This document shows, piece after piece, positions 739 to 20,463 of a DNA stretch of 20,463 nucleotides. A program made the translations under genes and the position numbers. The notes under the pieces are model-generated. The model saw only the letters and a list, made by a program, of their open reading frames with translations. It ran no database searches and was not told the DNA's origin. Location: positions 1 to 20,463 of the IMG/VR virus record IMGVR_UViG_3300030116_005215, one strand, 5' to 3'. Origin of the DNA: a virus. Within the stretch, counting starts at the first letter, position 1, and each line of letters begins with the position of its first letter.

Positions 739-3700
739 TGAACCAAGCACAGCGTGAGTATTTAAATAGTGTTTTAAACAGAAATAATGATCCTTCTATT
801 TATGATGAAGAAGATGATCTTGGGCAAAGCAGTTTAAATGAAGCTCAAAAACAATTGCTTATTAGATTGCGTGAACAACGTAACAAACAAAGTAATGTAA
901 GTACAGAAGCTCCCACAGGATTTTTAGATACAACATATAAAACTGTTCGTCGAGGTTTATCAAATATAGCAAACCTTGCGAATGTTTCTAGGGCAGAAGA
1001 TTTTGTTGAATTATCAACTGCGGCAAAAGCAGTAGAAAAAGAAGACGCTAGGTTAGAAGCTGCAGGAGAAGAAAGACCTTGGTGGTATAAAATGCTAACT
1101 TGGCAATACGCAGACAGAGAGACACCTGAAGAATTAGATGCGCTGGCTGCTAAATACGCTCAAAAAGCATATGATCGAGCTGTTTATACTGAACAAAATT
1201 TTCCTATGACAGAAGCTGGAAAAAAACAACTTCAGGAAATTGTTGAAGCAGATACATGGTTTGGGCAAGATGGCGCTATTATGAAAGCATTATCTGATCC
1301 GTTAGCCACTACTTCTGCTATGCTTCAAGTTGCAGGTGAGCAGATACCTACACTTGCCGCAGTAATGTTAACTGCAAAGAAAAATCCTAAAACAGCAATG
1401 GGTATAATGGGAGGTTCTTCATATCTTCAAGAACGATATGGTCAACTTTTAGGGGAAGCACAAAAAGCAGGTTATGATTTAAGCGATCCTAATCAAGCTC
1501 TTGAAGCTGTAAAAGATACAAAATTTATGGCAGATCAAGCTGATAAAGGATTTACGCGTGGTTCAATTATTGCTGCTACGGATCTTGCTTTTCTTGGGTT
1601 AGCGTCAAGAGCTAATTTTAATTTGGCAGGAATTGGTACTCAAACAGGTGTTCAAGCTATTGGTGGTGGTACTGGTGAGGCTTTAGCACAAGTAGCAACA
1701 GGTGAAGAACTTAGACCAGGTGAAATATTAGTTGAAGGTCTTGCAGAAGGTGCGATGGCTCCCATTGATGTTGCGGCTTTTGGGGCTAGAAAAATAACAG
1801 AAAAAGGGCCTGGTAATTCAGAAACACAAATTAGTGAAGTTTCAACTAATTTACAACAAGAATTAGCTAACGAAGAAGCTCAATTGCAAGCCGCACAAGC
1901 TGCTGAAAATAAAGATACAGAAATTATACAGCAAGAAACAGATATTGATACAGGAATAAAACGTTTAGAAGCTGCAAAGTCATTTATTCCACGAGATCAA
2001 TTTTTAAAAGAAAGAGAAGCTAATCGTAAAACTGATGCTTTAAATCCTCAAACGGAAATTGGGCAAGCATATCAAAATTATAAACTTACAAAAGGGGTTT
2101 ATCCTGCAAACCAAAAAGAAGAAAACAGTGAACTAACAAAATTTATGAAAGATTTTGTACCAAAAGATGATAGAGATGCAGGTATACAAGAATATAATGC
2201 AGCGCTTGATGCACACGCTCAAGCTGTTATTGATGGCACTGTTATTCCAGTTGATAACGATGCTCCTAAACCTAAGAAGACTAAGACAACAACTAAAACA
2301 ACACCAACAACAACTGAAACATCTGTTGTTGAAACAACAGAAGTAAAACCTCCTAAACCCGAAGGAAAAGTTGTAGCTGCTCAACGTGCGTACGCGGAAG
2401 AAAAACTTGGAAAAGATTGGGAAACAGTTGGAGGACTATCTCAGGCATTTGAAAATAGAACTGGTTTTTACAAAAAAGATAAAAACGGTAGAACTGCATT
2501 CCAAAATAAAGTCGACGCTGAAGTTATGGCCAAGAACGAAGCAACGACGACACCTGAAACAACTGTAGATGAAACTACGGATCAATCTGTTAACGCGTTG
2601 ACAGTTAAAGAAGTTCCTAAAGTAAAAGGTTTAAGTAACGATCAGAAAAAAATATATGACGTTCTTGTCGATCATTTTGTTGGAGAAAATAAATCTAATA
2701 TAGATGATGTTTGGGCGGGAGGAAAATTTCAAACAACAAAAATTGCAGAACTAGCAGGCGTTAAGAGCAAACAAGCTGTTAGTACTTCGATTAATAGATT
2801 CAAAACAAAAATATTAGAACAGCAAGGCGTTATTCCTAAAAACGCTACTAAAGCCGAAAAAGATGCAGGAATTGCTAAGATTGCTAATGGTCTTGCTGAA
2901 ATGGCTAAAGCGCAACGTGCGGCAACTATAGAAGCAAGTAGACAAACTGATGAATTAGCTGATACAGAAAATGTCGTTGACCAACGACCGGATGCAGATG
3001 AAGTTACCGACGACGATATTGCTGATAATTCTATTTTTCAACAACAAGGAATGGGTACTGTAGCTTCTGTAGGTCAAGGTAATTACACAGGAGTAAGTAA
3101 AGAAGATAGAGCTTGGACAAAAGCAAAAGCTGAAGAAAAAGATGAATACGCAGATGTACGTCAAGAGCGTGCTGATATTGAACGTCGCGCTGCTCAAACT
3201 AGAATGATTCAAGAATATGGACAAGAAGCTATAACAGAATGGAGAAATACTAAATCAGACGGAGCAGTTGATGTTAAAAATTTAAGTAGAAATGATTTAC
3301 TTGAATGGATTTCAATTGTTGAAGAAAATCGTGTAGGAGATATTTCTGACGCTCAAATGCAACAAGAACAAAGGGAGATAGAAAGAAGATATGACGCAGA
3401 CACCACCCAAAATAACACAGAAGGAAAGACTGCCAGGGCTGTTAAAAGCTCAAGCGGCAGGAATCAAACTGAACAGGTCGGAACTCAGGATAATACAGAG
3501 ACACAGTCCCAAGAAGGAGACCCAGACAGTTTCACCGCAGTCAACGAACAAGCAAGACCAACAGTAGAAACAAAACAAAAACGAAAAGTAAAACGATCAG
3601 CTAAAGATGCTCCAAAAGGCAAGACAACTGTTGAAAATATTAACAATACTATTGAACAAATGTTTGGTCGAGGTGAAGCTTTTGTTGAAGACGATACAGG

Positions 3701-8207: not shown

Positions 8208-11033
8208 TTATGAAGCTTTTGCATCTTCTTTTATTGGTGTGTTAGCTAATCCTACACCTACACCGTCCATGAGTTTATGATACTTTAACTCATAGCATCG
8301 AGCCATACCACTTGGAATTGTTGACCCTTGACCTATGTACATACGTTTGTTTGGTTCTCCATTTGGTTGTAATACAAGATACCCTGCGTTGTCTAATTCA
8401 TCACGCATTGCTCCTGCGGTAACAGAGTTTTCTTTGCACCAATCAGATAAAGATTTAACTGTTATAAATGCTTTTTTATCCTCAGTACATAAACGCCCTG
8501 CGGGTACAGTACGTAGTGGCATTGAAGTATCTTCTTTGCTTGTGTTTGCAGAGCCAAGTCGCTTAGTAACGATGAGTCGTCCGTGTAATGTAGCGATAAA
8601 AGCCGCTAGATGTTCTTGGATACTAGTATTAACCTCGCGTCTACTTTCTCTAAGTTTTAATACTTGAGCTGTTGCCCATTTACTCATTGCGTTTACATTA
8701 AATGAAATTAGACCAATTTTTTCTGCAATTTTTCCTGCAACTAAAGCTGTTACAATCGTGTCGCGGTAGAAACGTTCTTTGTTGTCGTCTTCTGATTGTG
8801 GGTTAAACTTGCTACGTGCAGCTATTAGCTGACGACGTACCCAATCACGATGTTTAATAACAAATCGAATATAAGGAAGACATGCTTCTCCATACACGTT
8901 ATCCATATGGTTTTCTACAAATGATTGGCTAACATCAGGAAAAGTATCTTTAACATATCCTTCGGCTAGTGGAACTTCAAAAAATCTTAGTTGAGTAGCT
9001 TCTACTTTATACCCTGCAGGTAACTTGGCTATAGATTCCAAAATTGAGTCATTGGAGGTGATAAAAGAATTTTTGAACCATTGACCACCTACTGTAGCAA
9101 ACCGACCGCTAGAAGACAGTCTTTCTTTGTCTCTGCCGTTTGCAAGGGCGTAACCTGTACGTGTAAGTTCTTCCGACGTTCTACCAGAAAACTCGTCAAG
9201 GAGTAGAGGAACCGAACCCATAATAGCAATTCGTTTGATTACGGCATTAAGTGTAGAACCTTGATCGCCAGTTTGTCTTTCCATGTATTCAGGTTTACCA
9301 TAAAAACCACATGCAATTTTTGCCGCCGTTGATTTACCTGTACCTCCATGACCCGTAAAAGCAAGCGGGAGTCCGTGCCAGTTTGACGAACCCATTAACT
9401 CGACAAGGATTGACCCCATCGAATGGCATAATGCAAACTGAAACGGCTCCGCTCCCTCCCTATTATAAAGCACGTCGATGTTGGAAATCCATTCTTCAAG
9501 CGTACCTTTACGACCAAAATTTACTGCTACATCTGTTGGTACATTTGGATCACATAAGACTTCGTGCGATCCTTTTTCTGTAATCATCTTAGTACCTATA
9601 ACAAAACCTTTACGGTCTTCTGTCCAACCAAACTGCCCATAGGTTTTTGTTTCGACGCGATATTTTTGTAGTGTTTCAATTAATGTTTCAGCAAATTCTG
9701 CCATATCATTCCTCGCGTTTCTTGTTCTTGTTAAAAATACTTCGTGGCTTGAAAGAGTTTCAGACATTTGAGTAGGTGAAGCTAACTCTGAGGTTGGCAT
9801 AAAAAACTCTCTCCATTGACCATTTTTTTCTTTTGCTTTCCAATGAATAACCCAAGTTCCTTCGCTATCTCTAATACGATTAATAGGATAAACAAATGAT
9901 TTACAAAAAGGTTTCCACGATATTGCTCCGTCGTCGTCAGTATAGGCCCTGGAAAGAGCAACGCCGTTCCACCTATACAATTTACTGTTCCAGTAAGGTA
10001 TAGTCTGCCCTTCAATCACTGTCGCGTTACTGGTTTGTTGACCGTCATCGTCGTCGTCACCCGCTGCGGCCGACTCCTGCTCGACGGTAGGTTCAATTTC
10101 AGGTGGGCAAAAACCTTTGCTCCTTGCACCATCAATCATTTTTTGAACTTCAGCACGAGTATCTTCTTCAGAGTACCCTTCAAGTATAAGTTCTTTTGCT
10201 AGTCCGTGTATTTCTGCGTCGGTATTACCTTTTGTAACCCATGAAGCTACTAGTTTAAGCATATTATTATGCCATTCGACGCCACTAAGGACAGCTTCAC
10301 GTGTTTCATTACGGTCTAATTTATCTCCATACTCAACAAAATCTCCAAACCCACCTTTTTTAATGGCTCTTTGAATATTGTTTTCTTGTATAAAAGACAG
10401 CATAGTAGCTCGTAAATGTTCAACTGAGTAACGCTTTCCTTGTTTAAGAAGAACTACAGGTCTAGGCGGATTATATTTTTTGTTGTGCGTACCTACAGGT
10501 CTCAAAACACGTGCTGAATCTAAGTCTACAGCTCGATCTATTTTCATCTCAAGAAAAGTTGTAATATCTCGTTTTAACGTAGATAATTCTAACCAAGTTG
10601 CTTTGTCTACTTCTTCATCTAAGTGAAAGTAAGTGTGGTAGCCCCCTCCGCTATCAACAACCGTTGGCGTTAGTCGTAGTGCCTGGGCTAGTTTAGCAAC
10701 GTCGGCGATTGCTTCTTTTTTGTCTTTGTATTTTTTGGGCTCATTAGGATTAACGTCATAATCATCGTAAAGAGCTTTACACCATTTGACGTTATCTTGT
10801 GTACGTATTCTGTACTTATCCTCTTTGTCTTTGTACCAATCACCAAACGAATTAATGGCGACGTAAACTTCTTTGGTTTCGTCCAATTTAACAGCTTCAG
10901 CCGCAGCTTCAGAAACTGTTGCGAATTTTCTATTTTTCCACCAAAATCTACCATAATCGTTTGCCTCTGGAACACCTAAGACAGTATGCCCTTTCGAGGG
11001 CAATAGCCACTCGAAGAACTCTAAGGTGTGCAT
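8208..11033 (-). CDS. Primase-helicase: archaeo-eukaryotic-type primase fused to DUF927-like helicase
   Basis: A replicative protein of about 941 residues that would make primers and unwind DNA at the phage fork. The N-terminal half carries archaeo-eukaryotic primase motifs: metal-binding DDYD at about 90-93, SGGGYH at 128-133, and DLDSARVLRPVGT with its acidic residues near 170-172. An acidic linker (five Asp in a row near 326-330) leads to a P-loop ATPase: Walker A GHGGTGKST at 561-569, Walker B LLLDE near 611-614, sensor-like TSND near 659-662 and a candidate arginine finger near 683. The longest frame starts at 11045, but that ATG is part of ATGGAGG, which is itself the ribosome site. The ATG at 11033 lies 5 bases after GGAGG and is preferred; 11036 is also possible. 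It is the last gene of the - strand module, following the ssDNA-binding protein. Confidence 0.85.
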   Translation of the reverse strand: MHTLEFFEWLLPSKGHTVLGVPEANDYGRFWWKNRKFATVSEAAAEAVKLDETKEVYVAINSFGDWYKDKEDKYRIRTQDNVKWCKALYDDYDVNPNEPKKYKDKKEAIADVAKLAQALRLTPTVVDSGGGYHTYFHLDEEVDKATWLELSTLKRDITTFLEMKIDRAVDLDSARVLRPVGTHNKKYNPPRPVVLLKQGKRYSVEHLRATMLSFIQENNIQRAIKKGGFGDFVEYGDKLDRNETREAVLSGVEWHNNMLKLVASWVTKGNTDAEIHGLAKELILEGYSEEDTRAEVQKMIDGARSKGFCPPEIEPTVEQESAAAGDDDDDGQQTSNATVIEGQTIPYWNSKLYRWNGVALSRAYTDDDGAISWKPFCKSFVYPINRIRDSEGTWVIHWKAKEKNGQWREFFMPTSELASPTQMSETLSSHEVFLTRTRNARNDMAEFAETLIETLQKYRVETKTYGQFGWTEDRKGFVIGTKMITEKGSHEVLCDPNVPTDVAVNFGRKGTLEEWISNIDVLYNREGAEPFQFALCHSMGSILVELMGSSNWHGLPLAFTGHGGTGKSTAAKIACGFYGKPEYMERQTGDQGSTLNAVIKRIAIMGSVPLLLDEFSGRTSEELTRTGYALANGRDKERLSSSGRFATVGGQWFKNSFITSNDSILESIAKLPAGYKVEATQLRFFEVPLAEGYVKDTFPDVSQSFVENHMDNVYGEACLPYIRFVIKHRDWVRRQLIAARSKFNPQSEDDNKERFYRDTIVTALVAGKIAEKIGLISFNVNAMSKWATAQVLKLRESRREVNTSIQEHLAAFIATLHGRLIVTKRLGSANTSKEDTSMPLRTVPAGRLCTEDKKAFITVKSLSDWCKENSVTAGAMRDELDNAGYLVLQPNGEPNKRMYIGQGSTIPSGMARCYELKYHKLMDGVGVGLANTPIKEDAKAS

Positions 11034-11038
11034 CATTA

Positions 11039-11043
11039 CCTCC
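11039..11043 (-). promoter_or_regulatory. Ribosome binding site GGAGG deciding the primase-helicase start
   Basis: GGAGG on the - strand overlaps the first in-frame ATG (11045) and lies 2 and 5 bases before the ATG codons at 11036 and 11033. Initiation at 11045 would have no ribosome site of its own, so one of the two downstream codons is the likely start. Confidence 0.7.
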
Positions 11044-11070
11044 ATAATGTGTTAATGCTTTAGCAAATAG

Positions 11071-11095
11071 GGTAGCCGAATTTGCTTCGGCTACC
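11071..11095 (-). other. Strong hairpin between ssDNA-binding protein and primase-helicase genes
   Basis: GGTAGCCGAA (11071-11080) pairs perfectly with TTCGGCTACC (11086-11095) around a 5-base loop. On the - strand it is followed by CTATTTGC, which is too poor in T for a full intrinsic terminator. A 14-bp perfect palindrome, TTAATTTAAATTAA (11104-11117), overlaps the stop codon of the upstream gene. The hairpin may be a weak attenuator or RNA-processing site that keeps ssDNA-binding protein output above that of the primase-helicase. That role is inferred. Confidence 0.6.
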
Positions 11096-11113
11096 TAGGA
11101 CTTTTAATTTAAA

Positions 11114-11872
11114 TTAAGCGTCTTCAAACTCTAAGTTATCTAATGCTTCATCAATGTCGTTATAGTCTTCGACATTTTTAGCTTCGTTTTTCGGTTTTGC
11201 CTTATCCGTTGGCTTAGACTTTTTTGGCTCTTCATATGTACCATCAAAGCCTTGACCTGATTTTTCAGGTGCTTTAGCCGCTTCTTCAGATACAGTTTCA
11301 AAACCCGTAGCAAAACCTTCAGATTTAGTCCACCCGCCCTCAACAGCGTCAAACGCAGATTTCTTTCTTAGTTCGGCTAAATCAATAACCTGTACTTGAC
11401 GTAAACGTAGGCTCACTCCCGATCCATCTAAGCGTGACGGATCATACACAACGAATGTTACAAGTACATTTATTTTAGACCCCGTCGTTAGCATGAAGTC
11501 CTTTGGCAACTCATTGTTGCTTGCATCAAATTGAGCAACAGATGTAGGTTCGTTATTAAACGCACCTTTGAGTTTAGTTTTAGCTATGTAAGATCCATTT
11601 TCGTCGACTTCAAAAACTTCATCATGCGAAGGAAATGCAGGCCATTTGTCCTGCTTGTTACCTGCATAAGTTTTTTTCATAGCGTTGTACAAAGGAACAG
11701 CTTGCTCTTTTGTTAGGGCAAGATTTAAGGTGTATTCCGCACCGTCGTCAGTTGGAGCACAAGCAATACGTTCTTGCTTATCTCCTTTTTTAACAAACTT
11801 ATAAGTTTGATTTAGTCTAGGCCAGAGCGCGGTCGCTCCAGTGACAATGTAGGTGGCATTTTTATCAGCCAT
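11114..11872 (-). CDS. Phage single-stranded DNA-binding protein
   Basis: A 252-residue protein that would coat single-stranded DNA during phage replication and recombination. The central region has the beta-rich pattern of phage OB-fold ssDNA-binding proteins. It includes a glycine-rich, valine-rich strand near 130-145 (TGSKINVLVTFVVYD) followed by VSLRLRQVQVIDL near 153-165 and FDAVEGGW, a signature I recognise from phage ssDNA-binding proteins. The C-terminus, after a Lys/Pro-rich linker, is strongly acidic (about 235-252, ending LEFEDA), as expected for a tail that recruits polymerase or helicase partners. AGGAG lies 7 bases before the ATG. It sits between the 171-aa Cys4 gene and the primase-helicase. 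The family is assigned by pattern, not by search. Confidence 0.75.
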   Translation of the reverse strand: MADKNATYIVTGATALWPRLNQTYKFVKKGDKQERIACAPTDDGAEYTLNLALTKEQAVPLYNAMKKTYAGNKQDKWPAFPSHDEVFEVDENGSYIAKTKLKGAFNNEPTSVAQFDASNNELPKDFMLTTGSKINVLVTFVVYDPSRLDGSGVSLRLRQVQVIDLAELRKKSAFDAVEGGWTKSEGFATGFETVSEEAAKAPEKSGQGFDGTYEEPKKSKPTDKAKPKNEAKNVEDYNDIDEALDNLEFEDA

Positions 11873-11893
11873 TAGCAGTCTCCTATTTTAGTT

Positions 11894-12409
11894 TTAGTGA
11901 ATGTAACCATCTGTTTTCTCGAATTGTGGTCGAGGGCTAGCAGACAGACTTTTAATTGCCATAAGCTCATTGTTTTCTAAAAAACGAACGACCTTAAAGA
12001 CAAGGAGGTTAAAGTTTTCTTTTGGTTGCGACGTTATAAAAGTAACAACACCTTTTAAACCATAACCTCTGCTCGATAACGACTTCTCATATGCTCTAAA
12101 AGATTTTAAAGAAGTCGAAGGTACACGCAACAGAGCATAATTAGGTTCGTCAAGTACAAGTAATTTAAGTGTAGCATACTCAGTACAAGCTCTTGCACGT
12201 TTTCCGTTGGGTGTAATTCTTGAACCCCAAGAACTTTGGGGGCATACGGCACATTGTTTTGCTTGTGGTGCAGAAATCTTTTCTGAGGGAGTTATCCCAT
12301 CTGCAGAAGCACAAATAATTTTTTCATCGTCTGAATAGTATGCTCTCATTCTATCCATTGAATGTACAATAACTGCTTCTACTGGAGGTTCTGCAATTTC
12401 AAGCATCAT
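11894..12409 (-). CDS. Conserved phage protein with four-Cys motif (171 aa)
   Basis: Function unknown. Cys residues at 33, 53, 56 and 75 (CAVC at 53-56, then RARAC) could bind zinc. The core, CPQSSWGS then NGKRARAC and VPSTSLKSFRAYEKSL near 96-111, resembles a recurrent but unnamed protein of phage replication modules. There is no signal peptide or membrane segment. The first ATG overlaps the stop of the 138-aa gene by four bases (ATGA); a second ATG follows directly at 12406. The weak AGGCG ahead of it suggests translational coupling. Its place just upstream of the ssDNA-binding protein suggests an accessory role in replication or recombination, by context only. Confidence 0.75.
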   Translation of the reverse strand: MMLEIAEPPVEAVIVHSMDRMRAYYSDDEKIICASADGITPSEKISAPQAKQCAVCPQSSWGSRITPNGKRARACTEYATLKLLVLDEPNYALLRVPSTSLKSFRAYEKSLSSRGYGLKGVVTFITSQPKENFNLLVFKVVRFLENNELMAIKSLSASPRPQFEKTDGYIH

Positions 12410-12822
12410 TTACGCCTAAAGTTAACAACTTGGGTTTCACTATATTTTGTGCCAGGAACAAGTTCACCATGTACTTCTGCGTACTCTTGGCAATTCTTTT
12501 TACTTGCACGTTTGTCTAGTAATTCCCATGCTTCATTTTTTATAATGTGTCCCATAAATGTATCAGGGTCATCAACTGTTACAGATGATCGTGTAGACCT
12601 ATAAGCAGTACCGTGTTCACGTGAAGACACGTTATCAATACCACGTTCATTAAACCTACGTAGAAACTCAACTTCAATTCCGTTTTGTTTCTCTTTATCA
12701 TTTGCGTCGTCAGCTTCGTACGCTGCCTTTCTTTGCGCGCGTCTATCTCTTAAACCGATAAATAGTTTTAGTAATGACGCATCATCAAGCTCCGGCACTT
12801 TCAATTTCGCCTGCATATTCAT
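12406..12822 (-). CDS. Conserved phage protein of unknown function (138 aa)
   Basis: Function unknown. The arrangement is one I recognise from many phages and integrated elements. A helical, charged N-terminal half contains LLKLFIGLRDRRAQRKAAYE and EFLRRFNERGI. A stretch like GTAYRSTRSSVTVDDPDTF follows near 70-90, then WELLDKRASKK and a C-terminal ELVPGTKYSETQVVNFRR. There is no catalytic motif that I can name. GGAG lies 7 bases before the ATG at 12822, which supports this start. The start lies inside the preceding HTH gene (38-base overlap), and the stop overlaps the 171-aa gene by four bases, so the three are co-translated. Confidence 0.75.
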   Translation of the reverse strand: MNMQAKLKVPELDDASLLKLFIGLRDRRAQRKAAYEADDANDKEKQNGIEVEFLRRFNERGIDNVSSREHGTAYRSTRSSVTVDDPDTFMGHIIKNEAWELLDKRASKKNCQEYAEVHGELVPGTKYSETQVVNFRRK

Positions 12823-13003
12823 GCTTACTCTCCTTCTTTTTTATTGTTAGCCATCTATTGATGTCATTTTCGTCCCATCTAAGAATTTTTTGAGAGACTT
12901 TAATGGGAGCGGGAAAACTAGCCTCTCGTCTTCTTAATTGATGCAACGCACCTTTAGAGAGACCCAGTTTTTCAGATAGTTGTGCTGTGTCTAAAAGATT
13001 CAT
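12785..13003 (-). CDS. AlpA/MerR-type helix-turn-helix DNA-binding protein (72 aa)
   Basis: A small regulator or excisionase-like protein. Residues about 5-27 (LDTAQLSEKLGLSKGALHQL) form a typical MerR-like helix-turn-helix. They are followed by the RREASFPAPIKVS segment and the RWDENDINRWL wing near 42-52 that marks AlpA and HTH_17 proteins. The basic tail after residue 53 is probably disordered. AGGTG lies 4 bases before the ATG. It is the first gene after promoter-like site 1, whose dyad begins about 20 bases upstream, so autoregulation through that dyad is a reasonable guess. An excisionase role is an alternative, but no integrase or att site is visible here. Confidence 0.8.
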   Translation of the reverse strand: MNLLDTAQLSEKLGLSKGALHQLRRREASFPAPIKVSQKILRWDENDINRWLTIKKKESKHEYAGEIESAGA

Positions 13004-13019
13004 GGTTCACCTATTTTAA

Positions 13020-13047
13020 ATTATATGTGTTAACATGTAAACACATA
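13020..13047 (-). promoter_or_regulatory. Promoter-like site 1: dyad operator plus TATAAT box
   Basis: Arms TATGTGTT (13024-13031) and AACACATA (13040-13047) flank an 8-base centre containing ACATGT; 11 of 12 pairs match across 24 bp. On the - strand, ATGTGTTTACATGT (13046-13033) is followed after 7 bases by TATAAT (13025-13020). The same 14-mer and spacing occur at 16229-16260. No good -35 hexamer sits at the usual distance. If TATAAT is the -10 box the leader would be only about 10 bases, so the site may instead be an operator. Confidence 0.5.
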
Positions 13048-13048
13048 A

Positions 13049-13067
13049 ACGTATATTCTTTATACGT
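13049..13067 (-). repeat. Short inverted repeat after the helicase stop
   Basis: ACGTATA (13049-13055) and TATACGT (13061-13067) enclose 5 bases. The outer arm touches the stop codon of the SNF2 helicase gene. The stem is short and A+T-rich and no real T-tract follows on the - strand, so it is a weak terminator at best. It lies next to the dyad of promoter-like site 1. Confidence 0.45.
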
Positions 13068-14638
13068 CAAGCAATAAGTTTTTCACGATTAGCTTTTATT
13101 TCATCAAGTAACGCACCTTGCAGTCGTTGTTTCTTCTGCAAGCGGCTGTATATTCGATGTTCAACTGGCGAACCTTCTAATAGAATAATAAAGTTATTCA
13201 TCTTTTGCCCAGGTCGGTTGATACGACCGTTGGCTTGTTCAAATACTTCATTACTGGTTACACAACTATACCATATTATTGTACTCGCGGCAGTTAATGT
13301 TAAACCGTGAGACATAGCCGCTGGTTGCGCGACTAACACTTTAGGGTCTTTTGTAGATTGAAACGCTTTAAATATTCTGTCTCGTTCTACTTTCTTTACC
13401 CCTCCATGAATAATTTCGACTGAAAAATCAGCACTAAGTTCTTCAGCAACCATGTTTACAGAAGATACATACGGAACAAATACTATGACTTTGCCCTCTG
13501 CTGATTCGATTATAGATTTTGTTTCTTCTATGCGTGGCGCAGTTGGTAGTGCCACTTCAGTGCCGTCATTGGCGTAGACGACGCCACAAGCTATCTGTAC
13601 TAGTTTACCCATTTTAACTGCTTCATTTACAGCAGTTATTTCTCCTTCGTCAGCTTCAGTACGTAGCTTAGTAACCATATCTTTGTACGCTTTATTTTGT
13701 TCACTTGTTAACTGCACAGATCGTGTTTCAAACATAACTGGAGGTAAGTCCAAACATTCATCACGTGTAAAACGCACTGCGGGTTGCATAACATTACGAA
13801 CAATATCGGTTGCTTCAGGTCTAGGAATCCATTGAAATTGTGTTAATTGTTTCATTACTTGGGATTTAAACCGACCAAAATAAGGGGGTACATTTTGTGG
13901 AGATACTAATCTACACTGCGCCCAAGCATCTGTTGGAGCATTAGGTGTTGGCGTTCCCGTCATTGCCCAACATGCGCGTGGTTCTGCGTGACGATTGACT
14001 ACAGTATTAATAGCTTTCCATTTCGTCGTACCTGCGTTGCGGGCGCACTGAGCTACTTCGTCGACGATAACTAAGTCTATATCTTTTCGGTTTTTAATGT
14101 GTGGTTCAATTATATTTACACCATCATGGTTAATAATATACACATCATAGTCTTGCTCAAGTAATTGTAACCGTTTTTTACGAGTACCATGCAGTACACC
14201 AAAGGTTAAATGGGGGAAATGGTTGAAGATTTCGTCGGCCCACGTACGTTCAAGCGTTGACAAGGGAGAAACTACTAACGCTTTGTTGAGTTGACCGACG
14301 CTTTTTAGGTAATCAAAAGCCCAAAGAGAAGCTAGTGATTTACCCGTACCAAGTTCGCTTAAGTTAAATGCACGTTTGTGAGTTGACAAAAAAGCCGCCG
14401 CTTCTTTCTGCGCTTGAAACGGTGTATATTGTCCTGACCATTTGTAATAAGTTCGTATTGGAGCAGGAGCATTAAAACCTAGATGTCGTAATGCAACTGT
14501 TTCACGTGTTTTGTGTGGAACAGCTACAAGAGGTTTTCCTCTAACACTGATTTGTTTGGCAGACGGTAGCACATTTAGTATACGTTCTGGATCTTTTATC
14601 TTCAAAATTAATGCTTGTTTGTCTTGCCATACTAACAT
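13067..14638 (-). CDS. SNF2-family superfamily 2 DNA helicase/translocase (523 aa)
   Basis: An ATP-driven DNA translocase, probably acting in replication restart, recombination or protein displacement. The motifs are in order: Q-like YTPFQAQKEA near 71-80, motif I SELGTGKS (94-101), motif Ia VVSPLSTLERTW (122-133), motif II VDEV (192-195), motif III MTGTPTPN (226-233), motif IV-V region VIVFVPY and QPAAMSHGLTLTAAS (438-452), and motif VI QANGRINRPGQ (468-478). The Walker B box is DEVA rather than DEAH, which occurs in phage members. Its length matches compact phage SNF2 proteins without accessory domains. The start lies 2 bases after the HNH stop, with AAGGG upstream. The operon places it directly after four nuclease or zinc-binding genes. 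Confidence 0.9.
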   Translation of the reverse strand: MLVWQDKQALILKIKDPERILNVLPSAKQISVRGKPLVAVPHKTRETVALRHLGFNAPAPIRTYYKWSGQYTPFQAQKEAAAFLSTHKRAFNLSELGTGKSLASLWAFDYLKSVGQLNKALVVSPLSTLERTWADEIFNHFPHLTFGVLHGTRKKRLQLLEQDYDVYIINHDGVNIIEPHIKNRKDIDLVIVDEVAQCARNAGTTKWKAINTVVNRHAEPRACWAMTGTPTPNAPTDAWAQCRLVSPQNVPPYFGRFKSQVMKQLTQFQWIPRPEATDIVRNVMQPAVRFTRDECLDLPPVMFETRSVQLTSEQNKAYKDMVTKLRTEADEGEITAVNEAVKMGKLVQIACGVVYANDGTEVALPTAPRIEETKSIIESAEGKVIVFVPYVSSVNMVAEELSADFSVEIIHGGVKKVERDRIFKAFQSTKDPKVLVAQPAAMSHGLTLTAASTIIWYSCVTSNEVFEQANGRINRPGQKMNNFIILLEGSPVEHRIYSRLQKKQRLQGALLDEIKANREKLIA

Positions 14639-14640
14639 TT

Positions 14641-14910
14641 TTACCCTTTCTTACTATACATAGATGGGTGCGTTTTACGCCAACCTTTATTTACTTTTGC
14701 ACTTACTATCTTTGTATTTGATTTTGCAGTACTGCCACCTTTATCAAGTGGTACTTTGTGATGAACGTGTGTACCATCACCTTTGGTAGCTCGTCCGTCG
14801 CGTAGCGCTTGGCGCCGCGCTTTGTTGTTGATGACGCGTTTTTTCTGAACACTAGGTTTTTTATTGTATTTGGCTTTTGTAGCTAATTCTTTTTTAGATG
14901 ACTTAGTCAT
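14641..14910 (-). CDS. Small HNH endonuclease-like protein (89 aa)
   Basis: A compact HNH-type nuclease candidate. The N-terminal half is very basic (about 5-40) and likely binds DNA. The core has HVHHKVPLDKGGS (48-60), with paired His 50-51, followed by N65 and N74 in a KSNTKIVSAKVNKG stretch, which fits the HNH pattern of metal-bound His and Asn. No Cys zinc knuckle is present. This layout (KGDG, then the His core, GGS, VSA) is common in short phage HNH proteins, so it may be functional rather than truncated. GAGGTG lies 4 bases before the ATG. Its start overlaps the end of the 59-aa Cys-rich gene by 8 bases. Confidence 0.75.
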   Translation of the reverse strand: MTKSSKKELATKAKYNKKPSVQKKRVINNKARRQALRDGRATKGDGTHVHHKVPLDKGGSTAKSNTKIVSAKVNKGWRKTHPSMYSKKG

Positions 14911-15082
14911 TTTCCACCTCTATGTTACAAGTTTTCTTTTCAACATAATAGTTATCTTTGGAAACTTCTTGAACTACAAGTCCTTGACAACAATCTTCTA
15001 TAACAGAATGGCATTGTGAACATTGTTCGTGTCCATGAACATAAATAGTTTTTGCTTCACACCCACATCTATTGCATCTCAT
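14903..15082 (-). CDS. Small Cys-rich (zinc-binding) protein, 59 aa
   Basis: A short gene filling what would otherwise be a 158-base gap. It begins MRCNRCGCEAK and carries CNRCGC (3-8), CSQC (21-24), a CC pair (31-32) and a late Cys at 52, with His 16, 18 and 25 between. This suggests one zinc-ribbon-like site. An excellent AAGGAG lies 6 bases before the ATG at 15082. The gene overlaps the end of the VRR-NUC gene by 14 bases and the start of the HNH gene by 8, as expected in this packed operon. I do not recognise a family. The combination of ribosome site, overlaps and Cys spacing makes it a credible real gene. Confidence 0.75.
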   Translation of the reverse strand: MRCNRCGCEAKTIYVHGHEQCSQCHSVIEDCCQGLVVQEVSKDNYYVEKKTCNIEVEND

Positions 15083-15374
15083 GTGTTACTCCTTCAATAA
15101 TTGTTTTGACTTGATCTACTGAGTCTACCACATATGCTAGTCCATTGGCACGTATTATCTCGTCAATTTCGCGTTGTTGATTTGGTGTGACGTTGTTGAT
15201 CTTGCCAGGGGCTTTCGTTTCAAACGCCATAAAACGACCATTAAAACACACAAGTATGTCAGGACAACCAGACCTACCCATGCCATTAGATACAGGCATA
15301 TAATACCAAGCGCCAATAGATTTAAGATATTCTTTAACCTTTTTCTTTACTTTTCCTTCGGGCGTTGTTGCCAT
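15069..15374 (-). CDS. VRR-NUC domain nuclease (101 aa)
   Basis: A single-domain nuclease of the VRR-NUC branch of the PD-(D/E)XK superfamily. Such proteins can cut branched DNA such as Holliday junctions. Key residues are visible: an N-terminal helix with Glu 6, SGCPDI with P38-D39, then FETK with E52 and K54, and a conserved QQ at 66-67. The length is typical of stand-alone phage members. The frame extends to a TTG at 15389, but the ATG at 15374 is preferred: GGGGTG lies 5 bases upstream and it starts 2 bases after the preceding stop. It lies between the Cas4/RecB-like nuclease and the 59-aa Cys-rich gene. Confidence 0.85.
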   Translation of the reverse strand: MATTPEGKVKKKVKEYLKSIGAWYYMPVSNGMGRSGCPDILVCFNGRFMAFETKAPGKINNVTPNQQREIDEIIRANGLAYVVDSVDQVKTIIEGVTHEMQ

Positions 15375-15376
15375 AT

Positions 15377-16045
15377 TTACACCCCACAAAACTCACATAA
15401 GGAACGTCCTACTGGACACCAATTTTTACAAAGTCCTGATGGTTTAGGCAACCATTTGTCGTCGTTGTAAGAATGCGCAAGTCTAGCTAAACGCGGTAAA
15501 AATTCACTCCATATATCTGGTACTTGTTCTCGAGTAAATTTTTCTTTGTCAAATTTTTTTGGTTTAAGCCAAACAAAACCCGTTACAACATTAGAAATCC
15601 AAGGGTACATAGCAAAAGCTAATGCCGCAAATAGTTTTAACTGATCAAGATCAGGTCGGTGTTTGCCTGTTTTCCAATCAAGTAAGTATGCGGTGTTCGA
15701 CCCAATTACTCCAATATCAATAATTCCACGCACCCATACGTCTTTCGCCATCCACGTCGTTTTACGGAATGCTTTCGTAAGCGCAACGCGTTCTTCTATA
15801 ACACGTTTGCCTTCAATCTTTTGTAGTTTGCGTACATATCTACCATAATCTGCTATGGATTCGGGTAATTGTTTTTGCCCTTTAGCAAATAATTCTAATG
15901 CTTTATGCACTTCGTTACCCCATTTAGTAGCTTCAGTCTGTGGTTCAGTAACTTGTCGCGTTACCCGTGTAAGTTGGTAACGCTTTGGGCAAGTTTCATA
16001 CGAGGTTAAAGCCGAGTAACTCCAAGGGTGGGTTAATTCTACGAT
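15377..16045 (-). CDS. Cas4/RecB-like PD-(D/E)XK exonuclease, probable ATC start (222 aa)
   Basis: A nuclease for DNA end processing or recombination. Motifs include an N-terminal HPWSYSALTSYETCPKRY (6-23), WGNEVHKALE with H47, GIIDIG with D110, DWKTGK (123-128) with D123 and K125, and QLKLFA from Q135. C-terminal Cys 206, 210, 217 and 220, with Cys 19, could hold an iron-sulphur cluster as in Cas4 and AddB (inference). The first ATG/GTG/TTG codon in frame is GTG at 15910, which would remove the first 45 residues including conserved parts. The frame is open upstream to 16075 with no ATG, GTG or TTG. AAGGA lies 7 bases before an ATC codon at 16045, at the position where homologues should begin, and overlaps the end of the 55-aa gene. 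I therefore place the start at ATC. A frameshift or sequence error is the alternative. Confidence 0.75.
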   Translation of the reverse strand: MVELTHPWSYSALTSYETCPKRYQLTRVTRQVTEPQTEATKWGNEVHKALELFAKGQKQLPESIADYGRYVRKLQKIEGKRVIEERVALTKAFRKTTWMAKDVWVRGIIDIGVIGSNTAYLLDWKTGKHRPDLDQLKLFAALAFAMYPWISNVVTGFVWLKPKKFDKEKFTREQVPDIWSEFLPRLARLAHSYNDDKWLPKPSGLCKNWCPVGRSLCEFCGV

Positions 16046-16206
16046 AGTATGTTCCTTTTTGTAAGGCGAAACGGTTTAAGACCAACCTTTACTGCCTTTT
16101 TTTGTACATGTACCTCACCAGTTTTTGTATTAATTATTGTACGTTTGTTAGGTGAGTAGTTAGCTTTAGGTATCTTTTTTAATTTAAACTCATCAGCTAT
16201 ACTCAT
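16039..16206 (-). CDS. Small basic protein of unknown function (55 aa)
   Basis: A hydrophilic protein rich in Lys and Arg, beginning MSIADEFKLKKIPK and ending with FRLTKRNILS. There are no Cys residues, membrane segment or motif I can name; it may bind nucleic acid. The frame extends to an ATG at 16260, but that lies inside promoter-like site 2. The ATG at 16206 has CAGGAG 6 or 7 bases upstream and is preferred. It is the first gene after site 2. Its last two codons and stop overlap the ATC start of the nuclease, so its translation may help the ribosome initiate at that weak codon. Confidence 0.65.
   Translation of the reverse strand: MSIADEFKLKKIPKANYSPNKRTIINTKTGEVHVQKKAVKVGLKPFRLTKRNILS
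16053..16057 (-). promoter_or_regulatory. Ribosome binding site AAGGA for the ATC-start nuclease
   Basis: AAGGA on the - strand lies inside the 3' end of the 55-aa gene, 7 bases before the ATC at 16045. No ATG, GTG or TTG exists nearby in the nuclease frame, so this site is the main sequence support for initiation at ATC. Confidence 0.55.
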
Positions 16207-16228
16207 ATTGTTCTCCTGCAATTTTTTA

Positions 16229-16260
16229 TTTATATATACACACATGTAAACACATTTCAA
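16229..16260 (-). promoter_or_regulatory. Promoter-like site 2 upstream of the nuclease operon
   Basis: On the - strand TTGAAA (16260-16255) could be a -35 box. It is followed by ATGTGTTTACATGT (16255-16242), identical to site 1, and 7 bases later by TATAAA (16234-16229). TATATA boxes at 16238 or 16236 would give 16- or 18-base spacing to TTGAAA. It lies between the PolA stop and the CAGGAG of the 55-aa gene, where an internal promoter would be useful. The left half of the dyad is degenerate here compared with site 1. Confidence 0.6.
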
Positions 16261-16263
16261 GTA

Positions 16264-18183
16264 TTATTTTGCTGATCCATAATTATCTGCAATGTCGCCC
16301 TCGCTCCATGTAATTAACTCAGGCCACCAAGTGGGAGGTGTTCGCATTATTGATTGCACGTCGTTCAGTATCCCTGGGGCTGCACACTCGTCGACGACGT
16401 ATACGAGCTCATCATGTACCATAAGTGCAGGATTTAAACCAAGTTCGTGTTGTACAGTTAATGCGTTGTCAGCAATTACACAGCGCGCAAGATGCTGAAC
16501 GATGTTTTCGTCAATTTTCCCTGCATATATTCTGGCTTTATTTCGACCATGTCCATACCACCATTCTTGTTGGTTTGTCTCATCATCATATTCTATACGT
16601 AAATCTGGATAACGGATCATTCCTTTAGGCGTACGTAGTCCTCCTTCTACAGGTGTTATAAACCCCCACGGATCAACTGATGCACCTTCTGCGCCACGTA
16701 TAATAGTCGGCAACGCTTTGTGGCATGTACGCCAACCAGTACAAATTTCGTTGTACTCGTATCGCCATCTATCAACTATATCTCGGCTTTCATCTTCGGT
16801 GATGTCTACACCACCCATAAGTTTTGCAACTTTTTGAAAAGTGACATGCCCTGCACCAAAACCTAGTCCTAGATGTGCTACTTTACCCACTTGCCTTTGT
16901 TGTTTAGATACATCATCTGGTGAAATTTCATATAACTTACTTGCAAAATCTCGGTACAAATCAGCTTTTTCAGGGTCGTCCTGATACATTTTCATGCTTG
17001 ATGGTACTTGCCACAAGAAATGGTTAACGCGTAATTCAATGCCGCTCAAGTCGGCGACGACGATCTTCTTCCCAGGCGGGGCTACCAACGACGATCTTAA
17101 TGCGTCTGATGGTTTTGGGTCATAAGGATTTATACGTGGTAAATTTTGTGGGTTATACCCCCAACCAGACCACCGACCAGTAGTATCTGCGCCATAATAT
17201 TTAAGTGGAATTGGTACTTTTTTGTCAGGGTGCGCTTCAGCCGCATCTATAAATGACTGTATACGTGTTTGTAAGATAGTAGACTTCGCGTCGAGGCGTG
17301 CTGCAGCAGCTGTAGCGACGAGCGGGTTTTGGTGTCCTTGGAGGGAAAGAAAACCTTCGTCCGTCTTCGCAAGCGCGGGAATCTCCTTACCAGTAGTAGG
17401 GGAAATTTTAGTCGGAACGTCGACACTTAAAGCCTCCAAGAACAGTGCGAATTTATTCGCAGAAGATAACACTGTCAAGCATTCTTGAGCGGCTTCTTCG
17501 TCAGACATTTCTGGAGTTCGTACACCCATAATATCAGCAGATTCTACAAGCATTGCTTGTTTACGAGCACTTTCATCTGCTAACGTGTTAACCAGTAAAT
17601 CCATATCTACATCAAATTGTGGTTCGACAAGCATACGAATTGTCATATCGATTAACTTAACTTCATCTTTGCGTGTGCGACTGATGAGTCGTGTCAATAA
17701 ATTGTAGCACTGATCGACGTCGTCAGCATTGTACTGCCGCATTGCATTAACTTCGTCTTCAGTAAAATCTGCAAGTTTTTTACCTTTAGTAGCTACTAAT
17801 GCCGATTGATCTTTCTCACCCAACTTGTAATGAGATACAAGTTTAGCTAGCGACAATCCCACATCTTTCGCGTGGATAGGTCTAGCCATTGCGAGAGTAC
17901 AACCCCATAGTTTAGGCTTAATGCCAAGTCGCCACGATAAAATCATAGCGTCAAAGCCAGAGAGATTATGCCCAACTACCCAGTAGTCAGACCAATCGAC
18001 ATTTTCGCAGATGTCTTTCACCTGCTGCTCCCCAAACGCGACGACAACTGGTTCGTCGCTAAATTTAAATGCACAAGAAATTATCTCTGTGTCAGGGTGC
18101 ATACAATACGCAATAGGAGACATTTTAGTAAGCGAGTGACCAACTGCCCAATAGGTTTCTAAGTCAACAATCGCTATTTTCAT
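16264..18183 (-). CDS. polA: Family A DNA polymerase with 3'-5' exonuclease (639 aa)
   Basis: The replicative polymerase of this phage, without the 5'-3' exonuclease domain of bacterial Pol I. Proofreading motifs are intact: Exo I VDLET (D7, E9), Exo II GHNLSGFD (N73, D78) and Exo III YNADD (Y151, D155). Polymerase motif A is VVADLSGIELRV with catalytic D378. Motif B runs RQVGKVAHLGLGFGAG with R430 and K434. Motif C is VHDE (589-592) with D591. The residue four after the motif B Lys is Leu 438, matching Phe762 of E. coli Pol I and Tyr526 of T7. A Leu there is known in many marine phage PolA proteins and is linked to slower, more accurate synthesis. The start overlaps the previous stop (ATGA), with AGAGGA upstream. 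Confidence 0.95.
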   Translation of the reverse strand: MKIAIVDLETYWAVGHSLTKMSPIAYCMHPDTEIISCAFKFSDEPVVVAFGEQQVKDICENVDWSDYWVVGHNLSGFDAMILSWRLGIKPKLWGCTLAMARPIHAKDVGLSLAKLVSHYKLGEKDQSALVATKGKKLADFTEDEVNAMRQYNADDVDQCYNLLTRLISRTRKDEVKLIDMTIRMLVEPQFDVDMDLLVNTLADESARKQAMLVESADIMGVRTPEMSDEEAAQECLTVLSSANKFALFLEALSVDVPTKISPTTGKEIPALAKTDEGFLSLQGHQNPLVATAAAARLDAKSTILQTRIQSFIDAAEAHPDKKVPIPLKYYGADTTGRWSGWGYNPQNLPRINPYDPKPSDALRSSLVAPPGKKIVVADLSGIELRVNHFLWQVPSSMKMYQDDPEKADLYRDFASKLYEISPDDVSKQQRQVGKVAHLGLGFGAGHVTFQKVAKLMGGVDITEDESRDIVDRWRYEYNEICTGWRTCHKALPTIIRGAEGASVDPWGFITPVEGGLRTPKGMIRYPDLRIEYDDETNQQEWWYGHGRNKARIYAGKIDENIVQHLARCVIADNALTVQHELGLNPALMVHDELVYVVDECAAPGILNDVQSIMRTPPTWWPELITWSEGDIADNYGSAK

Positions 18184-18599
18184 TCACTTTTTCCTCTCAT
18201 AGCATTACGAAAAACTTGTAGTTTTGCTTGGTCTTCAGGTTTTATAGCGTTGCCACATTTTCTAGCCTGAGTGTCGCGTTTCTCTAGTTTGTTTAGTCTG
18301 CGTCTATTAATTTCATGGTTTGCCCAGTTCAATCCACATTTTAAACTACAAAAATTACCAAAGTTCATAAGGTAAAAACCTGTATATACTTCGGTTATAT
18401 AGGAAATTTTACCTTCTTCGTCTGTAACAAGTTTTTCACTTTTTATTTCTTCTGGGCCTTGGTATTTTTCACCTTGATATGAAGAATAGTGTTTAACTGT
18501 TTCTCTTTTAGCTTCACTTTGGCAAGTGTAGCATTTAGGTGCAGTTTTGTATTTGTCTTCTCTCATACGTCGAGGTTTCGACAAATCAGATCGTATCAT
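18180..18599 (-). CDS. Cys-rich protein with FCS-type zinc-finger pattern (139 aa)
   Basis: Function unknown. A CYTC pair near residues 23-26 and FCSLKC near 83-88 form a two-part zinc site. The second half, NFCSLKCGLNWANHEINRR, resembles treble-clef FCS-type fingers. Between them is a charged segment and a short beta-rich stretch. The C-terminus is basic and helical. GGAGG lies 8 bases before the ATG. It directly precedes PolA with a four-base overlap, so it is co-translated with the polymerase and may assist it, although this is inferred from position only. Confidence 0.75.
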   Translation of the reverse strand: MIRSDLSKPRRMREDKYKTAPKCYTCQSEAKRETVKHYSSYQGEKYQGPEEIKSEKLVTDEEGKISYITEVYTGFYLMNFGNFCSLKCGLNWANHEINRRRLNKLEKRDTQARKCGNAIKPEDQAKLQVFRNAMRGKSE

Positions 18600-18621
18600 A
18601 ATAGTACCCTCCAGTTTTTTA

Positions 18622-18912
18622 TTATTGATCTTTTTCTTCTAGCTCGCATTCGTAAGCGATCCCAGTGTACGCCATGATGTCAACGTAATGATCCTTCTTA
18701 AGAGGACTTGTACGTTTGCGAGCAAGTTTTGTTGCCACATGAAGTATGGGAACATCTGATGGTTTAAGTTGATGACCAGTTATAGCGTTAAAAATGTTTG
18801 CTATATGGGTCATATTATCAACGGGATCGCCATATTCTTTATTACGGTCTTGTGATGTTAAAGCTGATGCTTCTGATAATAAATCACAACGTGTTACTTT
18901 CTTTTGTTGCAT
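18622..18912 (-). CDS. DUF6378-like phage protein (96 aa)
   Basis: A small, all-helical protein. The pattern LTSQDRNKEYGDPVDNM (18-34), then IANIFNAITG, DVPILHVATKLAR and DHYVDIMAYTGIAYE matches the phage family DUF6378 as I recall it. The biochemical role is unknown to me. The conserved acidic and amide residues and helical layout could suit a nucleotide-binding fold, but that is speculation. There is no signal peptide or membrane segment. GGAGA lies 8 bases before the ATG. It lies between the HTH-membrane protein and the Cys-rich gene that precedes PolA. Confidence 0.75.
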   Translation of the reverse strand: MQQKKVTRCDLLSEASALTSQDRNKEYGDPVDNMTHIANIFNAITGHQLKPSDVPILHVATKLARKRTSPLKKDHYVDIMAYTGIAYECELEEKDQ

Positions 18913-18927
18913 TTAATTTTTCTCCAA

Positions 18928-19233
18928 TTACCAAACCATGTAAAGCCACGAGCCAATTACTATTGTAATGGCAACAACAACTAATATTTGTAAAACTCTA
19001 TCTTTCCATACATTAACAGTATTAGGTCTAATAGGAGCGTTTACTATTGCTTTATCAAAATCAGATTGTGCTTTTGCTTCAGCTTCAAATATTTCTTTTG
19101 GAGTACCTATCGTACCCATAAGTTTTTGGACGTAGGCATAACTTACGCCAGTATCCTTTGAAACTTGTGACGGTGTGGCTAATCTGTTATCGAGTAAATA
19201 TTTCCAAACTACTTCAGCTTTCTTACCCATCAT
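18928..19233 (-). CDS. HTH protein with C-terminal transmembrane segment (101 aa)
   Basis: The N-terminal part (about 5-50) has a winged-helix-like pattern: VVWKYLLDNRLATPSQVSKDTGVSYAYVQKLM, with the recognition helix near 31-40. A polar linker follows, and residues about 80-101 form one hydrophobic stretch (ILVVVAITIVIGSWLYMVW) ending at the C-terminus. It looks like a tail-anchored membrane protein with a cytoplasmic DNA-binding head. The partner and target are unknown. The first ATG overlaps the stop of the sigma region 4 gene (ATGA); the second ATG at 19230 has better spacing from GGAGA and may be the real start. The tight coupling suggests a shared regulatory role. Confidence 0.75.
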   Translation of the reverse strand: MMGKKAEVVWKYLLDNRLATPSQVSKDTGVSYAYVQKLMGTIGTPKEIFEAEAKAQSDFDKAIVNAPIRPNTVNVWKDRVLQILVVVAITIVIGSWLYMVW

Positions 19234-19538
19234 AGGTCTCCTACTATTAAATGCCGAAGTTTTTTCATTTCAGGATTGTTACGTAGTTTACGTAACGCAC
19301 GTCTTTCTATTTGTTCGACACGTTGTTTAGTTACAGAAAACAATTTACCTATTTGGGTAAAAGTCCAAGGTTGTTCGTTAGGGCAATCAATACCGAATCG
19401 TAATCTAATTACCACTAACTCACGTTCAGTTAAGTTACCTGATTGACTATGCGAACCGTGTGTACCAGTTCGCATTTCTTCTTCTGTTTCATCAGGGAAC
19501 ATCTCATATTGGTGAGATTGAATAAAGTTATTAGTCAT
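19230..19538 (-). CDS. Stand-alone sigma-70 region 4-like protein (102 aa)
   Basis: A probable transcription regulator that imitates the -35-recognising domain of a primary sigma factor. Residues 36-51 (LTERELVVIRLRFGID) and 58-86 (WTFTQIGKLFSVTKQRVEQ, then IERRALRKLR) closely follow region 4 of RpoD-like factors, including the helix-turn-helix and the VxQIE recognition-helix end. Residues 1-35 are polar and probably disordered; there is no region 2 or 3, so it cannot be a full sigma factor on its own. It could bind the RNA polymerase beta flap, bind promoter DNA, or act as a co-activator. It starts 3 bases after the stop of the 236-aa gene and overlaps the HTH-membrane gene. Confidence 0.85.
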   Translation of the reverse strand: MTNNFIQSHQYEMFPDETEEEMRTGTHGSHSQSGNLTERELVVIRLRFGIDCPNEQPWTFTQIGKLFSVTKQRVEQIERRALRKLRNNPEMKKLRHLIVGDL

Positions 19539-19541
19539 AGT

Positions 19542-20252
19542 TTACTCACTTCCTGCAGACGCAATCTGATGTGCAACTGCCGCACTTGTTAACGCATCAA
19601 CATCTATACCTAATTCTTCAACCGTGGTCTTTTCGTCACGTTGTACTTTTCCTCGTGGTTTAGACGGGGCTTTTAGTTTATCTATATATTCCGTTGGTAC
19701 ATAGTGCTCGATCTCAGGCATAGCTTTGATAGCAGTGTTTAAAGATGCGTGTTGTTTCATAAACTCTTTAAGTTGTTCTTCAACTTTATCAAATTTTGCC
19801 TGCAAGCCTGCTTTAGTTGCTTCATTAGATTTACCACTTGCAAACCAGTTTAACACAACTGCTGGTATATCTTCTGGTTCAAATTTAATTATTGGAGTTG
19901 TATAATTACTGGCATTTTTATCAAAATGTTCTGGAGACAAACAAAACCCACTTTGTTTTTCTATATAAACTCTAAGATTACCACTATCAGGACATGATGA
20001 TGGAGCAGGGATTTTAACCTCAACTTTTTCTGCATTTGATAATCTTTTAGTCCATTTTGCAGGCATTTCATTTCTTAAATGAGGTGCTAATTTCCATGAT
20101 ACATCTTCTACAGCATCAGAAATTGCTTTATACTCTGGACTTCCAGATGTCACTGTATCTGCTTGATAAGGCTCTTGTGCCTTACGTGACATTTCTCTTA
20201 CCTTTTGTATTATTTCATATACAAGAGTTTCAGTTTTTCTTACATAAGCCAT
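19542..20252 (-). CDS. Unidentified phage protein (236 aa)
   Basis: I do not recognise this protein firmly. It has a helical N-terminal third (about 1-70), a central beta-rich part with paired Cys (about 75-130, with SSCPDSGNLRVYIEKQSGFC), and a helical coiled region (about 140-185) followed by IEHYVPTEYIDKLKAPSKPR. The C-terminal 40 residues are polar. The layout loosely recalls the phage domain Nmad5 (nucleotide modification associated domain 5), but I see no catalytic motif, so this is only a lead. GAGGAG lies 6 bases before the ATG. It lies between the VWA-like gene and the sigma region 4 gene. Confidence 0.75.
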   Translation of the reverse strand: MAYVRKTETLVYEIIQKVREMSRKAQEPYQADTVTSGSPEYKAISDAVEDVSWKLAPHLRNEMPAKWTKRLSNAEKVEVKIPAPSSCPDSGNLRVYIEKQSGFCLSPEHFDKNASNYTTPIIKFEPEDIPAVVLNWFASGKSNEATKAGLQAKFDKVEEQLKEFMKQHASLNTAIKAMPEIEHYVPTEYIDKLKAPSKPRGKVQRDEKTTVEELGIDVDALTSAAVAHQIASAGSE

Positions 20253-20276
20253 GTGTTTCTCCTCTCTGGCTAGGGG

Positions 20277-20463
20277 TTACGCTTCGACATCAAACTCAAC
20301 TACCTGACCCCAATCGAAACTGGTACATTCAGTAGTAAGCCAAACGGTGTCGTATTTAGAAGTGAAATCGTTCTGATCGCCATATCCGTCAGTAAGGTAG
20401 ACGACGACTTCAGGATCTAATTGGTGTTTGTCAATGTAGTCAAACACGGGTTCAAATGCTGTA
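20277..20463 (-). CDS. VWA-like domain protein (DUF2201 type), C-terminal end only
   Basis: The frame is open to the window edge, so only the last 61 residues and part of one more codon are visible; the gene continues beyond 20463. VVVYLTDGYGDQ and then YDTVWLTTEC and FDWGQVVEF match the C-terminal VWA-like half of DUF2201 proteins, where TDG gives a metal-site Asp. In phages and bacteria such proteins often pair with a MoxR-type AAA+ ATPase, which would lie outside this window. The stop is 25 bases before the start of the 236-aa gene, whose ribosome site lies in that gap. Confidence 0.75.
   Translation of the reverse strand, partial: TAFEPVFDYIDKHQLDPEVVVYLTDGYGDQNDFTSKYDTVWLTTECTSFDWGQVVEFDVEA

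Follow-up and report, generated by a model that had tools for sequence, protein, structure and literature searches.

Dispersed symmetric DNA sites are described here in a group of uncultured phages, represented by the IMG/VR virus record IMGVR_UViG_3300030116_005215, whose 20,463 bases were analysed over their full length and are called the window throughout. The sites, dyads present in several to about 19 copies per genome in this phage group, lie mostly upstream of genes, and related lineages carry different dyads. Judged from sequence, the dyads are probably the dispersed operators of a dimeric repressor whose specificity differs from lineage to lineage, as in heteroimmune phages. A preliminary description, made from the letters of the window, had noticed two copies of a 14-mer and proposed a phage-specific promoter class resembling the T4 MotA-box middle promoters. 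The element does prove to be phage-specific, regulatory in appearance, located ahead of operons and kept in relatives; the MotA-like box at a fixed distance is the part of that proposal that was not supported.

Dyads at two putative promoters

The 14-mer, ATGTGTTTACATGT, occurs on the minus strand at 13046-13033 (site 1) and 16255-16242 (site 2), with no third exact copy within the window. Seven bases separate it from TATAAT (13025-13020) at site 1 and from TATAAA (16234-16229) at site 2, and 11 of 12 pairs match in the 24-bp dyad formed at site 1; on these points the preliminary description was borne out. The mirror copy ATGTGTTAACATGT lies at 13025-13038 on the plus strand. A 22-bp dyad, with the core TGTTWACNNGTWAACA and the half-site consensus AYSTGYTWACR, contains the 14-mer as one of its sides.

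At site 1 the 22-bp dyad (13025..13046, minus strand) reads ATGTGTTTACATGTTAACACAT and is the proposed operator over the -10 and start of the promoter of an AlpA-like gene, with a score of 34.6 under the position weight matrix (PWM) described below. Of 60 non-redundant relatives, 50 have retained the dyad ATGTGTTWACATGTNAACACAT at this place downstream of the helicase gene. The proposed -35, TTGACG (13065..13070, minus strand), has a counterpart matching TTGACA in at least five of six positions in 48 of these 50, and in 11 relatives it has moved away from the helicase stop codon, which it usually overlaps, and is thus more than a side effect of that codon. In 46 of the 50 a spacer of 16-17 leads from TTGACA to a hexamer starting two bases ahead of the dyad, giving a conserved sigma-70-type promoter, TTGACA-N16/17-TAATGT, with its -10 within the left arm of the dyad; the hexamer is TAATGT or TAATCT in most relatives and TATGTG (13042..13047, minus strand) in the window. 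Among the ten relatives that lack the dyad, TTGACA is kept in nine, and the hexamer at a spacing of 17 is TAATAT, TATTCT or TAACCT in eight, while L079 has TATAAT at 16. The TATAAT of the preliminary description (13020..13025, minus strand) is not conserved as a -10, since a match in at least five of six positions was found in only 12 of the 50 relatives; in the others this stretch is a merger of the dyad end and the ribosome site. Because TTGACA and its spacing are kept with and without the dyad and TATAAT is poorly kept, the promoter appears to sit upstream, with the dyad over its -10 and start. A further arrangement, TTTACA as the -35 with TAAAAT at 17 bp, was rejected, as its start about 3 bases before the ATG would leave the ribosome site untranscribed and relatives do not keep this stretch. 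Lineages devoid of the common dyad have palindromes of other kinds between the -35 and -10 ahead of the AlpA-like gene, namely ACATCTGTATACAGATGT (L079 2140-2157) and ACCCTAAAAAATTTAGGGT (L135, after the helicase).

Site 2 (16234..16255, minus strand; PWM score 20.7) is a dyad with a single strong arm, the 14-mer, and is conserved downstream of the polymerase gene in relatives; it is the proposed operator in the spacer of a promoter. The proposed -35 is TTGAAA (16255..16260, minus strand), and TTGNAA stands ahead of the 14-mer at an equal offset in all 11 non-redundant sequences (window included) with a polymerase identity of at least 77.5%. The proposed -10, TATATA (16231..16236, minus strand), follows TTGAAA at 18 bp, the alternative being TATAAA (16234-16229) at 20 bp. 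TATAWA or TATAAG occurs at a spacing of 18 in the six sequences of at least 85.9% identity, and the -10 is less clear in more distant ones. In the closest relatives this hexamer begins 5 bases past the 14-mer.

The T4 MotA box is asymmetric and replaces the -35 at a set distance from the -10. A MotA-like activator box at a set distance from TATAAT or TATAAA, suggested by the exact 14-mer and the 7-base step at two window sites, is very improbable here. The present element is, as in the T4 middle promoters, phage-specific and near a -10, but it is symmetric and has no fixed distance to a conserved -10: TATAAT follows at +7 in only 12 of the 50 relatives at site 1, and the step is 5 bases in the closest relatives at site 2. 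A conserved -35 moreover lies upstream of the element, within an ordinary sigma-70-type promoter at site 1 and as the TTGNAA whose spacer holds the 14-mer at site 2. Searches of seven records for MotA and AsiA gave no match, and the control searches were equally silent.

Copies throughout the genomes

For the genome scan a symmetric PWM was trained on site 1 and applied to ten long relatives and the window, with Markov shuffles as the control. This revealed 84 dyads scoring at least 12 bits, compared with 0.0 in the shuffles, and the majority of the matches fall outside site 1, the training site. Of the 85 dyads with at least 13 bits, 44 (52%) have a gene start no more than 60 bp downstream (8.5% at random) and 60 are intergenic (16% at random). 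Further copies ahead of operons, which the preliminary description had named as support for its proposal, are present in the relatives. The dyads precede early and late operons, for example the terminase operon in G003 and G004; some are close to ribosome sites, and some are intragenic at recurring positions. In the window, weaker intragenic dyads were found in the DNA polymerase gene (17583..17604; 14.3 bits) and, as ATCTGTTAACGCGTTGACAGTT, in a giant open reading frame (ORF; 2585..2606; 13.8 bits).

Palindromes near ribosome sites could also be RNA hairpins that mask the ribosome site or terminate transcription. The arms of 128 distinct sites, however, vary independently: complementary bases were observed at positions 8/15 in 33 sites with 42 expected, and complementarity at positions 3/20, as at 8/15, is at or below the independent expectation. 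An Rfam search of window positions 11000-20463 gave no match. An RNA hairpin is thereby extremely improbable, and because the arms are without base-pair covariation, the dyad is best read as a DNA site for a dimeric protein.

Different dyads in different lineages

Where a contig lacks the dyad ahead of the AlpA-like gene, the remainder of the contig also holds none that scores at least 10 bits. De novo searches of such contigs identified TTTACAG-N1-CTGTAAA in L080 (4 copies), AGTATC-N3-GATACT in G011 (about 9 copies) and AAAGTCC-N5-GGACTTT in G013 (about 5 copies); signals of AGTTAAC-N6 in G015 and TAGCTAA-N4 in G012 were rejected, being near the shuffle maximum and unconvincing on inspection. 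The families are almost mutually exclusive per contig, and related phages with most core genes in common bear different ones (G011 and G013). Dyad type follows the helicase tree, in which well-supported branches force at least three changes from the common type. The cultured Rhizobium phage RHph_TM3_14A (L119, MN988472.1) has 23 copies of its own dyad, GTTACCT-N4-AGGTAAC, against 4 in shuffles, many of them at gene starts; its right arm, AGGT, is often placed on the ribosome site. No dispersed dyad above shuffles was found in the 40-kb stretches of Xp15, Rollin, Effie and KPP25.

In several cases these unrelated dyads occupy an identical place, such as that before the primase gene. There the window has a 68-bp gap (11046-11113), a third short gap, and the claim that no gap of about 60 bases exists besides those of the two sites is inexact for this reason. 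The gap contains a hairpin (11071..11095, minus strand), retained across the group right before the lineage-specific dyad, and, immediately before the primase ATG, the half-degenerate dyad ATTTGCTAAAGCATTAACACAT (11047..11068, minus strand), in whose place relatives carry dyads such as ATCTGTTAACACGTnAACA. The layout of hairpin, dyad, ribosome site and ATG is common to many lineages, the dyads differing. At this site L135 shows a symmetric change, from AAAGTCC to AAAGTAC, relative to its neighbours.

Search for the binding protein

The first gene past site 1 (12785..13003, minus strand) encodes an AlpA/excisionase-like helix-turn-helix (HTH) protein (PF05930, 2.7e-6). It was rejected as the binder, its recognition helix being identical with and without the dyad and different among phages sharing the dyad. 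Because the helix does not track dyad type, this protein is unlikely to set the specificity and, on these comparisons, is probably not what binds the dyad. A second candidate, a small variable gene by the terminase (phrog_1448 type, G002-G004), was also rejected, as its proteins diverge too much among phages sharing a dyad, and they are adjoined by repeats of a different kind. The counterpart by the terminase in G013 is a 166-aa protein flanked by dyads and 36% identical to a G011 protein. Small variable genes of the phrog_1448 or 166-aa type were located beside the terminase operon at L105:8135-8632, L098:959-1453, L151:563-1500 and L154:16400-17730, with direct repeats adjoining them, such as AATAAGACAATAAGACA or ATGACGTT; the arrangement resembles a replication or control locus with iterons.

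The HTH_3 search gave one clear match, limited to G008, and searches for ribbon-helix-helix proteins and serine recombinases gave none. ParB_N had no match in 17 records, mostly fragments, with controls positive in 11 of 14 genomes; a ParB/parS reading was rejected, a ParB-type protein not having been found. Profile scans of the pooled proteins revealed no clear repressor.

A host transcription factor might instead bind the dyads, the lineage-specific types then mirroring different hosts. No phage gene was matched to the dyad, and the AlpA-like protein, the sole widely shared DNA-binding regulator of these phages, does not track its type, both of which fit a host factor; phages sharing most core genes nevertheless differ in dyad family, as G011 and G013 do, and the symmetric change in L135 separates it from its neighbours at one and the same site. 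We regard a host factor as quite unlikely.

Mode of action

Under the favoured reading, a repressor would exclude host sigma-70 RNA polymerase from two operons: from the AlpA operon by occupying the -10 at site 1, and from the nuclease operon by occupying the -35/-10 spacer at site 2. Dyads at ribosome sites and within genes may be roadblocks to elongation, and the binder would differ in specificity from lineage to lineage, as among heteroimmune phages. Tyrosine integrases are present in several dyad-bearing members (G003-G008 and G010), and for this reason part of the group is probably temperate. In G003 a tRNA-Glu gene (L101 1261-1329) adjoins the tyrosine integrase and is a possible attachment site. 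What we infer comprises repression, roadblock action at the internal copies, lysogeny, and the origin of the binder in phage or host.

Several points weigh against a repressor. The window's own -10 at site 1, TATGTG, is weak, and the HTH_3, ParB and ribbon-helix-helix searches yielded no general binder candidate. L036/L038, L067/L068 and L126/L139/L143 are without the common dyad and have no recognised substitute, and the copy numbers of the other dyad families are based on one or two contigs apiece. No integrase was found in the available stretches of G001, G002 and G009, the closest relatives of the window, or of the dyad-switched lineages, and lysogeny is therefore not established for those phages. 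Lastly, the dyads could be bound by an activator or dual regulator, of phage or host, that turns on early and late operons and defines an activator-dependent promoter class. Dyads do stand at early as well as late operons, and at site 1 relatives that lack the dyad have a -10 closer to consensus (TAATAT, TATTCT) than the weak ones that accompany it (TAATGT, TATGTG). MerR-type activators bind in the promoter spacer, and the dyad of site 2 likewise lies within a spacer of 18-20 bp. At site 1, however, the dyad covers the -10 and start, which is the classical position of a repressor, and the copies at ribosome sites and within genes have no evident activating role. Activation is thus considered unlikely, and repression is retained as the preferred explanation.

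A wider proposal, put forward only tentatively and rather doubtful at present, is that a dispersed symmetric-operator system governs almost every operon of these uncultured phages and of the related Rhizobium phages, that its site was swapped wholesale several times and that its regulator is of an undescribed kind. Replacement of a whole operator set requires the regulator and every site to change together, which is a standing puzzle of phage immunity evolution and, to our knowledge, has been studied mainly in actinobacterial phages so far. Several site families exist among the phages of the present group, which have core genes in common; syntenic sites, those before the primase gene, can be compared, and the cultured Rhizobium phage offers a system in which the regulator could be isolated.

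Comparison with known dispersed operators

The stoperators of Cluster A mycobacteriophages (L5, Bxb1 and others) are many repressor sites distributed genome-wide, a minority of them in promoters, with a consensus that varies among heteroimmune phages; they are 13-bp and asymmetric, follow the direction of transcription and have a known monomeric repressor as their binder (PMC6550527, PMC9283540). The present sites are similar in their many dispersed copies, some overlapping predicted promoters, and in a consensus that changes between lineages, but they are symmetric dyads and lie mostly upstream of genes. Phage P1 has 22 C1 operators dispersed over its genome for one repressor, each 17-bp and asymmetric (ATTGCTCTAATAAATTT) (PMC8546580). 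Our sites are likewise scattered through the genome and, unlike those of P1, symmetric. A likeness exists also to the conserved inverted repeats of Streptomyces phage phiC31, which are mostly intergenic and bound by the phage repressor; in the present group, in contrast, lineages with common core genes carry different dyads. The symmetry of the sites sets the group apart from the L5, Bxb1 and P1 systems.

Other features of the window

The window encodes a primase-helicase, an SSB-like protein, the AlpA-like HTH protein, a SNF2-type helicase, nucleases, an A-family DNA polymerase and a sigma region-4-like protein. IMG/VR contigs make up its close relatives; a search of named phages gave no similar DNA, and bacterial contigs searched for a host or prophage gave no close match. 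At the protein level the nearest named phages are the Rhizobium phages of the RHph_TM3_14A group, Pseudomonas phage Rollin, Acinetobacter phages and Xp15.

A short protein with a sigma-70 region 4 domain (19230-19538, minus strand; PF04545, 2.8e-14) could be a phage transcription factor; it is restricted to part of the group, with homologs in G001-G003, G009, G014 and L080. The giant ORF (738-7838, plus strand) of 2366 aa has a DarB-like antirestriction match (phrog_10089, 4.5e-26). Additionally, a 101-aa protein (18928-19233, minus strand) has, as judged by eye, an HTH-like N-terminus and a membrane segment at its C-terminus.

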